64,000 nt of DNA from contig NZ_FOAP01000002.1 in the NCBI RefSeq assembly GCF_900109545.1, positions 310,001 to 374,000 of the forward strand. The letters run 5' to 3'. Shown piece after piece: positions 9,461-44,761 of the stretch. The notes beneath the pieces are model-generated. The model was not told the origin of the DNA. It did not search any database and saw nothing but the letters and a program-made list of their open reading frames with translations. This DNA comes from Stigmatella aurantiaca. Its GTDB lineage: Bacteria > Myxococcota > Myxococcia > Myxococcales > Myxococcaceae. Position 1 is the first letter of the stretch. Every line of letters begins with the position of its first letter. The position numbers and the translations under genes are program-made.

Positions 9461-9600
9461 CTCTCCAGTTCCGGGAAATGTGAATCAACTGACGCGTTGC
9501 GGCACAGGAGGGCAGCTCGATACAAACATTCACATTGCCCTGCCGTGACTTGCCGCGTCATGTCTACAGGGTGCTCCTCCAAGGCAGGAAATTCCACACC

Positions 9601-39626: not shown

Positions 39627-39998
39627 ATGAATCCCCAGCTACGCGGACACTTCGAGCGGGAACTCCACGACTCCCGGGAGGCCGAGGCGCGCGGGGAGCT
39701 GGCCGCCGCGTGGCGGTTCCTGGAGCGGGCCCACATCCTGAGTCAGGCCTATGCCGGGCCGCACCTCCGGGTGCACGGGGCCATGTTCGCGTTCGCCTGG
39801 CGGCGGCGGGACTGGCGCGAGTGGCGGGGACAATGGCCCCGGCTGCTGCTCGCGGCCCCCGGCTCGTGGACCGGGAGGGCCCCCCGGGGGAATACCGGGG
39901 GGGCCAACGTGGGCCTCTTCACCCCCATGGCCATTCCCGAGGACCTTCAGGAATGGCTCCGGGAGGCGCCGGCTAGCCCTTCACGGCGCCTGCGGTGA
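39627..39998 (+). CDS. DUF3703 family protein
   Basis: A 123-residue protein with the DUF3703 pattern: a helical RELHDSREAEARGELAAAWR, the invariant LERAHILSQ, paired His in GPHLRVHGAMF, GQWPRLL and the ending GNTGGANVGLFTPMAIPEDL. The histidine and Gln set suggests a metal site, but no activity is established for the family. It begins 23 bp after the second dehydrogenase and its last 26 bp overlap the end of the converging permease gene. Confidence 0.85.
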   Translation: MNPQLRGHFERELHDSREAEARGELAAAWRFLERAHILSQAYAGPHLRVHGAMFAFAWRRRDWREWRGQWPRLLLAAPGSWTGRAPRGNTGGANVGLFTPMAIPEDLQEWLREAPASPSRRLR

Positions 39999-40797
39999 GG
40001 CCGGAGATGATCTTCCGCTGGAAGATCAGCACCAGCACCACGAGCGGCACGGTGACGATGACGGAGGCGGCCATGATGATGCCCCAGGGCGTCTCGAACG
40101 CGCTGCCGCCGCTGAACAGGGCGATGGCCACCGGCACCGTGCGGACATCGTCCGACAGGGTGAAGGTGAGCGCGAAGAGGAACTCGTTCCACGCGGAGAT
40201 GAACGCCAGGAGGCCCGTGGTCGCCATGGCGGGCCCCAAGAGCGGCAGGAACACCTTCGTGACGACCATCCACGGCGTGGCGCCGTCCACGATGGCCGCT
40301 TCCTCCAGGTCCTTCGGCAGCTCGCGCATGAACGTGGTGAGCACCCAGATGGTGAAGGGCAGGGTGAGGATGAGGTTCGAGAGGATGAGCGACGGCAGCT
40401 TGTTGTAGATGCCCAGCCACCGCACCAGCTCGAACATGCCCGACAGCACGGCGATCTGCGGGAACATGGACACGCCCAGCACCGTGAGCAGCAGCATGCT
40501 GCGGCCCCGGAACTGGATGCGCGCCAACGCGAACGAGGCCGTCAGCCCCAGCAGCAGCGACACCAGCACCACCGCGGTGGCGACGATGACCGAGTTGACG
40601 ATGTTCTGCCCGAAGGGCTGGGCAGTGAACACCGCCGTGTAGTTGCTCCACGCGGGCTCCTTCGGCCACGGGGAGACCTCGAACAGCTCGCTGCCCGTCT
40701 TCAGGGACGAGACGATCGCCCAGTAGAAGGGAAAGAGCGTGTAGAGGACGATGACCAGCAGCAGCAGCCCAAAGGCGATCTTCTTCAGCCAGCCCAT
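39973..40797 (-). CDS. Carbohydrate ABC transporter permease, MalG type
   Basis: A 274-residue inner-membrane permease with six hydrophobic helices. The EAA loop that contacts the ATPase is EEAAIVDGATPWMVVTKVFL (about 185-204). It is the last gene of a binding protein-permease-permease operon, 3 bp after the MalF-type gene. It would pair with that subunit to import a sugar, most likely a disaccharide such as trehalose or maltose by family likeness. No ATP-binding subunit is in the window, so a shared MsmX/MalK-type ATPase elsewhere is required. Confidence 0.93.
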   Translation of the reverse strand: MGWLKKIAFGLLLLVIVLYTLFPFYWAIVSSLKTGSELFEVSPWPKEPAWSNYTAVFTAQPFGQNIVNSVIVATAVVLVSLLLGLTASFALARIQFRGRSMLLLTVLGVSMFPQIAVLSGMFELVRWLGIYNKLPSLILSNLILTLPFTIWVLTTFMRELPKDLEEAAIVDGATPWMVVTKVFLPLLGPAMATTGLLAFISAWNEFLFALTFTLSDDVRTVPVAIALFSGGSAFETPWGIIMAASVIVTVPLVVLVLIFQRKIISGLTAGAVKG

Positions 40798-40800
40798 GCC

Positions 40801-41745
40801 CTAGTCTCCCAGCTTCACCCGGCCCACCACCATGTAGAGGGCGGTGAACACGGCGATGATCGCGAACAACAAGGAGGCCGCGGCCGAGCCGACCCCGATC
40901 TCCTGGTACTCGAACATGCGCTGCCGCGCGTAGCCCGCCATGGGCATCGTGTCCGTGCCACCGCCGGTGAGCACAAAGAAGATGTCGAAGACGCGCAGCG
41001 CATCCAGGATGCGGAAGATGATGGCCACCATCAGCGGCCCCTTCAGCATGGGCAGCGTCACCTGGAAGAAGGCCCGGATGGGCCCCGCCCCGTCGATGCG
41101 GGCCGCCTCGTAGACGTCCCCGGGCAGCATCTGCAGCGCCGCCAGGATGAGCAGCGTCATGAACGGCGTCGTCTTCCACACGTCCACGGCCACCACCGCC
41201 CCGAAGGCCAGGGAGGGCTCGGCCGTCCACGCCATGGGCTCGGAGATGAGCCCCACGGACATGAAGATGGCGTTCACCACGCCGTAGATGTCGTTGAACA
41301 TCCAGGCCCACATCCTCGCCGAGACAACGGTGGGGATGGCCCAGGGCACGAGGACCGCGGCGCGCAGCAGGCCACGGCCCCCGAACTTCGCGTTCAGCGC
41401 CAGGGCGATGATCATCCCCAGCACCGTCTCCAGAAAGACCGACACCCCCGCGAACTTGAAGGTGGTGACCACCGTGGTCCACCAGTCCGGATCGTCCAGG
41501 ACCTGGCGGATGCTGTCCAACCCCACGAACTGCGAGGCGGCCATGTCCGTGAGGTTCGCGTCCGTGAACGAGAACCAGAAGGTCCGCGCCAGCGGCCAGC
41601 CCGCCACCAGCAGCATCACCACCAGGGTGGGGGCCAGGAACAGCCAGGCGGCGCGGGTGCGCTCGCGCAGCAGGGCGGAGGCGCCTTCCGGCGGTCCGGA
41701 AGAGCCCCCTTCGCCAGGAACGATCGGGGTCGCGGGGTGGGCCAT
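40801..41745 (-). CDS. Carbohydrate ABC transporter permease, MalF type
   Basis: A 314-residue permease with a Pro/Ser-rich N-terminus, six helices and the EAA loop YEAARIDGAGPIRAFFQVTL (about 226-245). It starts 10 bp after the binding-protein gene and ends 3 bp before the MalG-type gene, so the three are one transcript. The order and sequence agree with ThuF/MalF-like subunits of family 1 sugar importers. Confidence 0.93.
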   Translation of the reverse strand: MAHPATPIVPGEGGSSGPPEGASALLRERTRAAWLFLAPTLVVMLLVAGWPLARTFWFSFTDANLTDMAASQFVGLDSIRQVLDDPDWWTTVVTTFKFAGVSVFLETVLGMIIALALNAKFGGRGLLRAAVLVPWAIPTVVSARMWAWMFNDIYGVVNAIFMSVGLISEPMAWTAEPSLAFGAVVAVDVWKTTPFMTLLILAALQMLPGDVYEAARIDGAGPIRAFFQVTLPMLKGPLMVAIIFRILDALRVFDIFFVLTGGGTDTMPMAGYARQRMFEYQEIGVGSAAASLLFAIIAVFTALYMVVGRVKLGD

Positions 41746-41755
41746 TACCGCCTCC

Positions 41756-43021
41756 TTACCACTTCCCGTTCTTGCCCAGGCTCTTGAGCTTCGTGTCCAC
41801 GCGCTTCAGGTTGTCGGCCGCCTTACCTTTGCCCGACAGCGTGGAGTAGACCGCGTTGCGGAACTCGGTGCTCACCTGGTTGTACTTGGTGCCGGTGATG
41901 GTGGGCCGCGGCACGGCGTTCACGAACGTGTCGTAGAGGCTGCCGAAGAAGGGGTTGGCCTTGAGCAGTTCCTCGTCCTTGTAGAGGCTCATGATGGTGG
42001 GGTTGAAGGCGCCCACCAGCGCGCGGCGCTTCTGCTCCTCGGGGCCCGTGAGGTACTTCACCAGGTCCACGGCGATCTCCGGGTTCTTGGAGTACTTGGA
42101 CACCCCGAGCTGCCAGCCGCCCAGCGCGCCCGTGGCCTTGCCGTCCGCGCCGCCCTTGGGCAGCGCCATCACTTCCACCTTGCCCTTGATCTGGCTGTCC
42201 TTGGAGTTCGCCAGCGCCCAGGCGTACGGCCAGTTGCGCATGAACACCGCGTTGCCGGACTGGAACGCGCCGCGCGCGCCCTCTTCCTCGTAGGCCAGCA
42301 CGCCCTTGGGCACCACGTTGCCCACCAGCGAGGCCATGAAGTCAACGGCCTGCACCGCCTTCGGGTTGTTGATGGTGACCTGGCCGCTGGAGTCCACAAT
42401 CGTCCCGCCGCCGAAGGAGTCCACCCACTCCAGCGCGTTGCACGTCAGGCCCTCGTACGACTTGCCCTGGAACACGAAGCCCACGAGCTTGTCGTTGCCC
42501 CCCTTCTTCTCCGCGTCCACGATGGTCTTGGCCGACTGCGCCAGCTCCTGCCACGTGGTGGGCGGCTTCTGCCCGTGCTTCTCCAGCAGGTCCTTGCGGT
42601 AGTAGAGCAGGCCCGCCTCGGTGAACCAGGGCATCGCCACCAGCTTGCCGTTCACCGTGTTGTTCTTCACGATGGGCTGGAAGTGCTGCTTGAGCACGTC
42701 CTCGGGGAAGTGCGGCTTCAGGTCGATGAAGTGGTTGGCCACGATGCCCGGCCAGATGATGTCGATGCGCACCACGTCCAGGTCCGTGGAGCCCGCCGCC
42801 AAGAGCTGCTGGAACTGCGCGAGCTGCTGCCCGGCGTCCGTCGGCACGCTCATGATCTGCACCGTGTGCCCGCTCTTCTTCGCCCAGGCCTGAGCCCCCT
42901 GGGTGCAGAGCTCCTGCTCCTGGCCCACGCTGCCACAGGCAATGACGATCTTCTCCGCCTGCGCCAGCTCCGGGGTGATGAATGCCGCCGCGGCCACAAG
43001 CCCTGCCAGTACCTTTTTCAT
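41756..43021 (-). CDS. Sugar ABC transporter substrate-binding protein
   Basis: A 421-residue periplasmic family 1 binding protein. The start ATG at 43021 follows GGAGG by 8 nt and gives a signal peptide ending in ELAQAE. Motifs include VVRIDIIWPGIVANHFIDL, TEAGLLYYRKDLLEKHG, PPTTWQEL and GGWQLGVSKYSKNPEIAVDL, all typical of ThuE/LpqY-like trehalose or maltose binders. It is first in its operon, with a structured leader. The frame is open further to 43189 but that part overlaps the operator sites and lacks coding bias. Confidence 0.92.
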   Translation of the reverse strand: MKKVLAGLVAAAAFITPELAQAEKIVIACGSVGQEQELCTQGAQAWAKKSGHTVQIMSVPTDAGQQLAQFQQLLAAGSTDLDVVRIDIIWPGIVANHFIDLKPHFPEDVLKQHFQPIVKNNTVNGKLVAMPWFTEAGLLYYRKDLLEKHGQKPPTTWQELAQSAKTIVDAEKKGGNDKLVGFVFQGKSYEGLTCNALEWVDSFGGGTIVDSSGQVTINNPKAVQAVDFMASLVGNVVPKGVLAYEEEGARGAFQSGNAVFMRNWPYAWALANSKDSQIKGKVEVMALPKGGADGKATGALGGWQLGVSKYSKNPEIAVDLVKYLTGPEEQKRRALVGAFNPTIMSLYKDEELLKANPFFGSLYDTFVNAVPRPTITGTKYNQVSTEFRNAVYSTLSGKGKAADNLKRVDTKLKSLGKNGKW

Positions 43022-43025
43022 ACGT

Positions 43026-43060
43026 GTTTCCTCCAAGGAAACGCTCCGCCCCTGGAGCGT
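43026..43060 (-). promoter_or_regulatory. Paired leader hairpins over the ribosome site of the binding protein
   Basis: On the minus-strand mRNA a 7-bp stem (43041-43047 with 43054-43060) is followed directly by GUUUCC-UUGGA-GGAAAC (43042-43026), whose loop and 3' arm include the GGAGG ribosome site. The second stem could hide the site; the two stems share the C at 43042 and the A at 43041, so they may be alternatives. Confidence 0.4.
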
Positions 43061-43091
43061 CGAGAACGCGTTCACACGGGCTGGGCAAACC

Positions 43092-43143
43092 TTGACGCGA
43101 GAGGTCAACGTTTTGCTGAGCAATCTTTGACGCGAGAGGTCAA
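43092..43143. promoter_or_regulatory. Two identical 17-bp operator-like sites
   Basis: TTGACGCGAGAGGTCAA occurs at 43092-43108 and 43127-43143, 35 bp apart. Each copy is itself an inverted repeat (TTGAC, 7-bp centre, GTCAA), as expected for a dimeric repressor or activator. The spacing is about 3.3 helical turns. They lie 71-122 bp upstream of the binding-protein ATG and 203-254 bp upstream of the porin start. Confidence 0.75.
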
Positions 43144-43215
43144 GAACGCTCGCAGCGGCCCACCCCATGGGGCGTGCAACCCGTATCACGATTTATCCAT
43201 GATCAAGAGACTTGA

Positions 43216-43238
43216 ATAGAACAACTATCAAGTTCTAT
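43216..43238. promoter_or_regulatory. 7-bp inverted repeat upstream of the porin gene
   Basis: ATAGAAC (43216-43222) and GTTCTAT (43232-43238) flank 9 bp in the AT-rich part of the control region. It could be a second operator or part of the porin promoter. Confidence 0.3.
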
Positions 43239-43345
43239 GAGGAGGCCCGCTTTGGCCGGCCCACCGAGGAAGGGAGAGGTCTCCCTCCGGTCTCACTCCT
43301 CACATCTCGACTTTTGTTGTCTGCCACACGTTTGGGGGCTGCATC

Positions 43346-44761
43346 GTGCTTTCTTCCCGAAGACTGCGTTCTTGCGTCACCTCGTTCCTCTCCGCCGCGA
43401 CCCTCCTGGCAGTGCCCACCACCGCGTCCGCGTGGATTGGCTCTGAGAACCTGGAGATCGGCATGTACGGCCGCATTGGCGCCTCCTGGAATCCCCAGAC
43501 GGGCCGGTACGTGCACGGCAAGTCCCTGAACCTCCTCGGCAACCCCCTGGGTGGCCGCTTCGAGGAAGGCGACTACATGGAGCCGACGATCAAGCTGCAC
43601 ATCGTCAAGCCCGTGGTGGAGGAGCCCACCAAGCCCTGGTACCAGGTGGTGGTCACCCCCGCCTTCTACTCGAGCACGGGCTCGTTCCTGGGCGCCTCGC
43701 CCCCGGGCTTCTCCATCTCGCAGGCGTACCTGGAGGCGGGCAACGTGCTCACCCCGGACCTGACGATGTGGGTGGGCCAGCGCTTCTACCGCAGCACCGA
43801 CGTGCACATCGCCGATATCTTCTTCTTCAACCAGCTGGTCTCGCAGGGCGCGGGCGTGAAGTACAAGGGCCTGGACCTGGCGGTGCTGCTGCAGACCTCC
43901 CAGGCGCCCGGCCTCTACAGCGTGCCGGCGGGCCCGGAGACGGGCAACATGCGCATCGACCGTCAGCGCACGGTGTTCGTCGGCCAGTACGTGCTGCCGG
44001 TGGCCGAGAAGCACTCGCTGAACTTCCTGGCCGAGTTCCACCTGCTGCCCTCCAGCAAGTCCCTGCTCACCGATGAGGGCACCACGGTGCAGGAGGCCGA
44101 CATCGGCTACGTGGGCGGCGTGAAGGGCCGCCTGGACCTGGGCAACGGCAGCTTCAACGAGCTGTCGGTGCGCGTCGGCGGCGGCATCGCCAACGGCGCC
44201 TTCAGCGCCTCGCCCACCTTCGCCACCTTCGGCCGTGCCAACGAGGACGGCAAGTACAGCGGCGCGCTGGGCATCGAGGCGGTGGAGCACCTGCTCATCA
44301 ACGTGAGCCCGCTGCTCACCCTGAACGCCTACGGCATCCTCGAGTACAGCAAGGGCGCCGATGACGGGGAGCGGACCTCGGCCACCACCGCCATCAACAA
44401 CGGCACGAACTTCGCGGTGGGCGTGCGCAGCTTCCTGTACCTGACCGACAACTTCCACCTCATCAACGAGGCGACGTTCCAGGGCTTCAAGGCGGAGCTG
44501 CCCGAGGGCGTGGAAGACCCGGGCATGCCCACGGCCTTCCGCTTCTCCATCGTCCCCACGCTCGTGCCCTCCGGCCTGCGCTCGGCCTGGGCCCGCCCGC
44601 ACATCCGCCTCATCTACTCGCTGGCCGTCTACAACCAGGCCGAGGTGGACCTCTACACGGACCGCGGCACCATCGGCCTGCCCGTGTCGCCGTACCTCAA
44701 CGACTTCGGCGCCAAGAAGTTCGGCCACTTCGTGGGCACCCGCGCCGAGTGGTGGTTCTAG
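43346..44761 (+). CDS. LamB-like outer-membrane carbohydrate porin
   Basis: A 471-residue outer-membrane protein with a signal peptide (FLSAATLLAVPTTASA) and alternating hydrophobic strands of a beta-barrel. Start and end match the maltoporin family: EIGMYGRIGASWNPQTG near the mature N-terminus and GTRAEWWF at the C-terminus with the terminal Phe needed for barrel assembly. Length fits an 18-strand LamB barrel. GTG start with GGGGG about 8 nt upstream. It is divergent from the sugar ABC operon, so porin and importer probably take the same oligosaccharide across both membranes. The exact sugar is not shown. Confidence 0.82.
   Translation: MLSSRRLRSCVTSFLSAATLLAVPTTASAWIGSENLEIGMYGRIGASWNPQTGRYVHGKSLNLLGNPLGGRFEEGDYMEPTIKLHIVKPVVEEPTKPWYQVVVTPAFYSSTGSFLGASPPGFSISQAYLEAGNVLTPDLTMWVGQRFYRSTDVHIADIFFFNQLVSQGAGVKYKGLDLAVLLQTSQAPGLYSVPAGPETGNMRIDRQRTVFVGQYVLPVAEKHSLNFLAEFHLLPSSKSLLTDEGTTVQEADIGYVGGVKGRLDLGNGSFNELSVRVGGGIANGAFSASPTFATFGRANEDGKYSGALGIEAVEHLLINVSPLLTLNAYGILEYSKGADDGERTSATTAINNGTNFAVGVRSFLYLTDNFHLINEATFQGFKAELPEGVEDPGMPTAFRFSIVPTLVPSGLRSAWARPHIRLIYSLAVYNQAEVDLYTDRGTIGLPVSPYLNDFGAKKFGHFVGTRAEWWF

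Follow-up and report, generated by a model that had tools for sequence, protein, structure and literature searches.

Introduction

Operators of MarR-family regulators are palindromes with half-sites ~11 bp apart. In the LacI family, AglR of Rhizobiales and Rhodobacterales regulates alpha-glucoside operons via tcAAAGCGCTTTga, an even palindrome (PMC4052901). The same paper describes GapR and GluR, also of the LacI family, as regulators of unlinked global sugar regulons, in which one factor acts on many operons through conserved upstream palindromes (PMC4052901).

The pair of palindromes described here, upstream of a sugar uptake operon, can be compared with each of these systems. Like MarR-family operators, the sites are palindromes with an ~11-bp half-site distance, and a MarR gene of the same genome has TTGACAATTGTTGTCAA upstream; in contrast, the candidate MarR protein considered for the present sites is conserved where the motif is absent. 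The likeness to AglR lies in the related binding-protein/permease operon and the palindromic operator upstream of it, but the AglR gene divergently adjoins its operon (PMC4052901), whereas the palindrome here is odd (17 bp), its sequence bears no relation to tcAAAGCGCTTTga, and a linked regulator was not recognized. With GapR and GluR, the locus would share one factor, many operons, and conserved upstream palindromes; however, their palindromes are 20 bp long and serve central sugar metabolism, while the genes here encode mainly secreted glucan hydrolases and uptake functions (PMC4052901).

Results

The window, i.e., the whole stretch of 64,000 nt that was analyzed, contains two exact copies of TTGACGCGAGAGGTCAA, at positions 43092 to 43108 (copy A) and 43127 to 43143 (copy B; neither assigned to a strand), with a start-to-start distance of 35 bp. 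Each copy is an odd 17-bp palindrome of the form TTGAC-N7-GTCAA, with arms of 5 bp and without a central CG. A preliminary description of this DNA had reported two exact copies with 5-bp inverted arms, 35 bp apart, between divergent ABC and LamB-like genes. Direct sequence matching reproduced the pair, and the placement also held, the ABC gene encoding a solute-binding protein and the porin matching PF02264. The twin palindromes exceed chance expectation: no further match at ≤3 mismatches was found in the window, two matches to TTGACGCGAGAGGTCAA arose in 0/100 dinucleotide shuffles of the window, and both an exact 17-bp repeat and any TTGAC-N7-GTCAA arose in 0/5000 dinucleotide shuffles of the intergenic region.

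The twin sits in a 324-bp divergent intergenic region, with genes for a sugar solute-binding protein and two permeases on one side and a LamB-family porin gene on the other. The binding protein, read as AglE-like (alpha-glucoside), is encoded at 41756 to 43021 on the minus strand (PF01547, 7.5e-36); its start was set at 43021 from a ribosome-binding site and a signal peptide, and the mechanical open reading frame (ORF) extends to 43189. Two ABC sugar permeases, AglF/MalF-like (40801 to 41745) and AglG/MalG-like (39973 to 40797), are encoded on the same strand, both matching PF00528 with sugar-permease models below cutoffs, and the porin gene occupies 43346 to 44761 on the plus strand (PF02264, 4.8e-40). 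The best solved relatives of the binding protein (6j9w and related entries) are named only "ABC transporter, periplasmic substrate-binding protein," and the next are MalE3 and a trehalose/maltose-binding protein. Because binding-protein homologs in other proteobacteria adjoin two permeases, an amylase-like enzyme, and an ATPase (17 of 80 loci, read by eye), the importer is read as an alpha-glucoside (AglEFG-like) system. No ATPase gene was seen beside the binding-protein operon, and four MalK-type ATPases are encoded elsewhere in the same genome. The exact site was upstream of none of these 4 MalK-type sugar ABC loci and a one-mismatch site was present at one; as further targets, the loci were rejected, one nearby site falling within a coding sequence. 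The uptake (binding) protein was present in 22 of 96 genomes.

A candidate lamB promoter, TTGAAT-N18-TATGAG (43212 to 43241, plus strand), was identified by eye from the alignment and the sequence and was not listed by the automatic scan. Eight orthologs show good conservation of this block; the spacer sequence varies among them, and some differ at one or two hexamer positions. Since it lies ~70 bp from the nearer palindrome, any control of lamB would work from upstream. A reading of the twin as a sigma-54 enhancer pair found no support, in that the 8 orthologs have no -24/-12 promoter (GG-N10-GC, listed from 7 matches upward) in common. A search of Rfam gave nothing close to a gathering score.

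Both sites are retained at exactly 35 bp in G036, G037, and G038, which together with the genome of the window (G000) form the core genomes (four of four with this spacing) and which we take to be predatory soil bacteria. Their cores have changed, copy B of G038 has one arm change (TTGGC), and the distance from site to start codon shifts by 1 to 2 bp among the core genomes while the 35-bp spacing stays. Conserved positions across the four genomes were 19/20 in the arms, 10/14 in the cores, 15/18 between the sites, and 16/31 and 36/46 in the flanks. Only the contrast between the arms and the first flank (16/31) was significant at the locus (P = 0.0015); at this locus alone, the arms were indistinguishable from the cores (P = 0.13) and from the other flank (P = 0.15). 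More distant orthologs have two sites 20 bp apart (L018) or one site (L016 and L017), and L015/G042 is the only one of 8 orthologous loci where no site was found. The preliminary description would have been abandoned had there been no conservation upstream of orthologous loci; instead, a site lies upstream of the binding-protein gene at 7 of the 8. In genus g7, a one-mismatch site precedes the binding-protein gene in three of four loci, the match in the fourth appearing to fall in lamB. A scan of 29 solute-binding-protein loci gave 14 with a match, four matches (L021, L025, L028, and L038) being uncounted as seemingly in or derived from coding sequence. Between a T-G-(A)-C (TGAC-like) block and a GCGTCA block, both common to twelve sites of 7 genomes, the core varies. 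An inverted repeat conserved in orthologous promoters with a variable spacer, as expected of a dimeric-factor operator, is therefore present.

Genome-wide, we searched with the relaxed motif TGACGC-N5-GTCA, whose definition was sharpened after seeing the data and whose frequency in coding sequence is reduced by the TGA within it. This motif had 36 to 55 strand matches per genome in four genomes versus 8 to 15 for the reversed pattern used as a control. In G000, it occurred at 38 places (41 strand matches, three palindromic, versus 9 reversed), and in G037, it occurred at 41 places (48 strand matches, seven palindromic, versus 11 reversed). The context of every place was read in these two genomes. 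Leaving the twin aside, we judged 15 places in G000 and 14 in G037 to be noncoding, corresponding to 23 noncoding loci once orthologs were merged and three ambiguous loci kept. A carbohydrate gene faced the site at 7 of the 23 loci compared with 0 of 20 control genes (Fisher P = 0.008); because the 23 loci have 30 facing genes, the per-gene contrast is weaker (7/30 versus 0/20, P ~0.02 by hand calculation). The seven loci carry two alpha-1,3-glucanases, a GH3 enzyme (beside GH30), a GH13 alpha-amylase, a GH16 enzyme, and CBM56 and CBM96 proteins. The motif is thus found in front of related genes at other places in the genome, as expected of a multi-operon regulon. It is possible that secreted-enzyme genes merely have longer intergenic regions, which may bias the carbohydrate excess.

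Several choices define these counts. The controls were a small set, a random 20 of 27 candidate genes from the same fetched stretches, and one of them, a PIG-L de-N-acetylase, was not counted as glycan-degrading; neither were the subtilase with a ricin-type lectin and the nucleotide-sugar enzyme at L383 (a coding site) counted as carbohydrate genes. The facing genes of L358/L400, L339/L402, and L372 fell outside the Pfam scan. Sites within 200 nt of an ORF start were left out at L333 (in the window near 9546, ambiguous), L342, and L343 (coding) in G000 and at L366, L377, L383, L390, and L391 in G037. The 23-locus count keeps L329, L390, and L352/L375 (coding in G000, intergenic in G037), all noncarbohydrate, and adding L333 would give 7 of 24. 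In the window itself, a relaxed site of ambiguous coding status, GTGACTTGCCGCGTCAT, is present at 9546 to 9560, close to where two ORFs that overlap on opposite strands have their 5' ends. In G036, sites at chosen places again flank alpha-1,3-glucanase, GH3, GH16, GH2, and CBM56-type genes (L404, L435, L437, L440, and L444 assigned by likeness of protein starts, without Pfam), and as a chosen, incomplete set, these loci stand outside the enrichment count. Contig C22 of G000 has four sites judged noncoding within 85 kb (43772 to 128455; subtilase, hydroxylase/YebC, PAS kinase, and TetR), the first three in the same order in G037.

In 11 other genomes, the perfect form TGACGC-N3-GCGTCA was present at 1 to 4 places per genome versus 0 to 4 for the reversed control, being about equally common or commoner, and sugar genes were found at only a few of the 19 places whose context was read. 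Since the perfect form has no clear excess elsewhere, the proposed regulon is supported only for the close relatives of G000. The palindromic variant TTGnCGC-N3-GCGnCAA had 1 to 4 sites per genome versus 0 to 3 for its control across 14 genomes.

Noncoding sites are retained between species and are clustered at particular promoters. Eight of the 19 candidate noncoding sites of G000 have an orthologous noncoding site in G037, and in these eight, 18 of 56 core positions and 7 of 16 outer positions have changed. A ninth noncoding pair (L342/L377) was dropped as coding, and L329, with its site at an ORF start, was kept out of the site alignment. Assuming neutral divergence of 20% at the ten required bases, at least 8 of 19 sites would survive with a probability of 4e-4; for 30%, this probability falls to 2e-8. 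Five more G000/G037 pairs, in which the G000 site is labeled coding, are also retained, which is unsurprising within coding sequence. Additional one-mismatch sites at a distance of up to 120 bp were found at 7 of 40 noncoding loci, where 0.034 was expected per locus, and all seven, which represent three distinct loci in up to three species, are GH3, alpha-1,3-glucanase, or CBM56-type promoters. Paired or clustered sites, as in the twin, are thus a feature of glucan promoters, with varied spacing. The preliminary description suggested a cooperative or looping operator, but the spacings give no sign of a fixed cooperative distance: the 35 bp of the twin does not correspond to complete helical turns, and neighboring sites elsewhere are 16, 20, 24, 30 to 31, 52, or 105 bp apart.

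A narrower reading is that the twin is a local operator whose regulator serves this locus, with the genome-wide relaxed sites belonging to other factors or to chance. The exact 17-mer is indeed confined to this locus: G000 has the 2 exact copies and 8 other places with 2 to 3 mismatches, and the sole other exact copy among 96 family genomes is at the same locus of G036. TTGAC-N7-GTCAA occurs at 7 places in G000, five of them beyond the twin and in or near unrelated genes, and searches with the exact 17-mer and with this pattern alone yielded no regulon. We nevertheless consider purely local control unlikely, as the relaxed sites are kept between species and are both enriched and clustered at glucan genes. 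The same distinction applies to the concern, raised in the preliminary description, that many random copies might be unrelated to sugar genes. The exact 17-mer, private to its locus, escapes it; of the noncoding loci with the relaxed motif, 16 of 23 were not counted as carbohydrate loci (MarR, PAS kinase, subtilase, ribonucleotide reductase, and others).

No regulator gene was recognized beside the 8 orthologous loci, as judged by eye from gene-call translations in the fetched flanks. The proposal that the twin serves as an operator for an unlinked regulator therefore agrees with the conservation of the sites, with a wider related set rich in sugar and glucan genes, and with the absence of a recognized adjacent regulator, the operator role itself being a prediction. 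One special case of this explanation is that the regulator is the MarR-family protein encoded at G000:C20:82837-83463, which would also control its own gene. A site lies ~95 to 106 bp upstream of the aligned MarR start in G038, G000, and G037 and is nearly perfect in G037 (ATGACGCATCGCGTCAT); G036 has a degenerate form, ATAACGCATTGCGTCAT, seen by eye only and under the limit of the scan. An 11-bp half-site distance also fits winged-helix dimers, which counts for MarR. In contrast, the DNA-binding domain of this protein hardly varies among 30 orthologs, some of them from genera that lack the site; 0 of 22 scanned orthologs outside g1 and g8 have a site with <2 arm mismatches; and the protein is present in 73 of 96 genomes versus 22 of 96 for the uptake protein. 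Since its DNA-binding domain is nearly unchanged where the site is absent, this MarR protein may be only a target, and we assign a small probability to its being the regulator. At another MarR gene of G000 (L083:5061; G000:C2:536060), TTGACAATTGTTGTCAA lies between the MarR gene and an outer-membrane efflux gene, with the same or nearly the same sequence in G036, G037, and G038, and is probably the operator of the neighboring MarR protein. A TetR gene with a site nearby (L359) was also considered and rejected: G000 and G038 retain the site whereas G037 has lost it, and another palindrome, TACCGACCGGTCGGTA, adjoins, so this TetR protein is probably not the binder. TACCGACCGGTCGGTA itself is kept upstream of the TetR gene in three genomes (L359, L428, and L429) and is likely TetR's own operator.

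The origin of the twin bears on a further alternative, namely, a neutral and functionless 35-bp tandem duplication. Copies A and B are included in a 29-nt direct repeat (units at 43080 to 43108 and 43115 to 43143, 90% identical, neither assigned to a strand), for which reason the twin may have been born by local tandem duplication. Lack of function is nonetheless quite improbable, given that spacing and arms are kept in four genomes and that distant orthologs have sites without that duplication.

That the twin elements work as RNA hairpins, within the 5' leader of the mRNA for the binding protein, is in our view very improbable. The elements can fold in the sense strand and the single inner arm change (in L012) is a G-U wobble, but no stem pair has changed on both sides in 11 distinct rows, i.e., compensatory changes were not found in the twin stems, and the same motif occurs in either orientation at many unlinked promoters. 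A nearby hairpin of the same leader differs in this respect. Located at 43041 to 43060 (minus strand) just upstream of the ribosome-binding site, it pairs in all 70 cells of 10 loci (8 orthologs and 2 paralogs), with both-side changes in 3 of 7 pairs, and may act on the stability or translation of the mRNA.

The sole LacI-family protein of G000, encoded on another contig than the twin, has an ortholog in 11 of 96 genomes, each of which belongs to the 22 that encode the uptake protein, but is extremely improbable as the regulator. It was rejected as the binder on operator type and on linkage: its gene lies directly behind a GH1-like gene in 8 of 10 other carrier genomes (by sequence, with Pfam GH1 confirmed for one; linkage not seen in G038 and no clear reading in G004), and CG-centered LacI-like sequences, e.g., TCGTAACGTTTCGA or AACGTTACGA, are present in the 8 upstream regions of GH1 genes that were read. 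Of the LacI motifs studied, 96% are even palindromes and 4% are exceptions (PMC4052901); a LacI/AglR-type operator was rejected for the twin, which is not an even palindrome with a central CG and beside which no regulator gene was recognized by eye in the fetched flanks. Several of the GH1 upstream regions with LacI-like palindromes (L245, L246, L248 to L252, and L254) add tandem repeats like GACGCGGTGCGACAAGG, which resemble the twin-site motif and score weakly against the site matrix. A one-mismatch twin-type site precedes the GH1 gene by 99 bp in both L245 and L246 and by 41 bp in L254.

Two other site types were observed. In genus g7 (L098 to L102; G033 and G034), TTGACTCGA[AC]AGGTCAA-like sites precede members of an apparent paralogous family of unknown proteins and were set aside as lying beside a paralogous gene family; similar ones were listed in G032. 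[CT]TGACGCGAGGCGTCAG precedes a lipoyl-synthase-like gene in L421 and L427, which represent two other genera, and falls within called coding sequence in L409.

Discussion

From the computed positions, conservation, genomic distribution, and clustering of the sites, we infer that a protein binds them, that one regulator is shared, that control is likelier to be by repression, and that sugar is sensed. The most probable reading of these sequences is that the twin palindromes are operators of an unlinked dimeric factor controlling alpha-glucoside uptake and a glucan-enzyme regulon. A dimeric transcription factor encoded elsewhere would bind both palindromes, reading half-sites TGACGC arranged as TGACGC-N3-GCGTCA and accepting, as at the twin, that the inner GC of one half is weak. 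The paired sites would control the uptake operon (the binding protein and two permeases) and probably also the divergent LamB porin, and the same factor would act on the alpha-1,3-glucanases, GH3, GH16, and GH13 enzymes, and CBM56/CBM96 proteins. With one factor on both sets of genes, uptake and extracellular hydrolysis would be switched together. The factor would be sugar responsive and probably a repressor, repression being the likelier sign of control because most sites read are within ~200 bp of a called start codon.

In literature searches on myxobacterial sugar and glycoside-hydrolase regulation, no such regulon was found among the titles listed, and searches with the motif in several spellings returned no paper, or only plant, diatom, and vertebrate titles. 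We tentatively suggest that a so-far-undescribed myxobacterial regulator might couple alpha-glucoside uptake with secretion of enzymes degrading alpha-1,3- and beta-1,3-glucans through clustered TGACGC-N3-GCGTCA sites, forming a regulon for fungal cell walls and storage glucans. The motif and its predicted targets (the uptake operon, the porin, alpha-1,3-glucanases, GH3, GH13, and GH16) make the regulator findable, and with this motif and target list, the idea of a coordinated fungal-wall regulon becomes directly testable.
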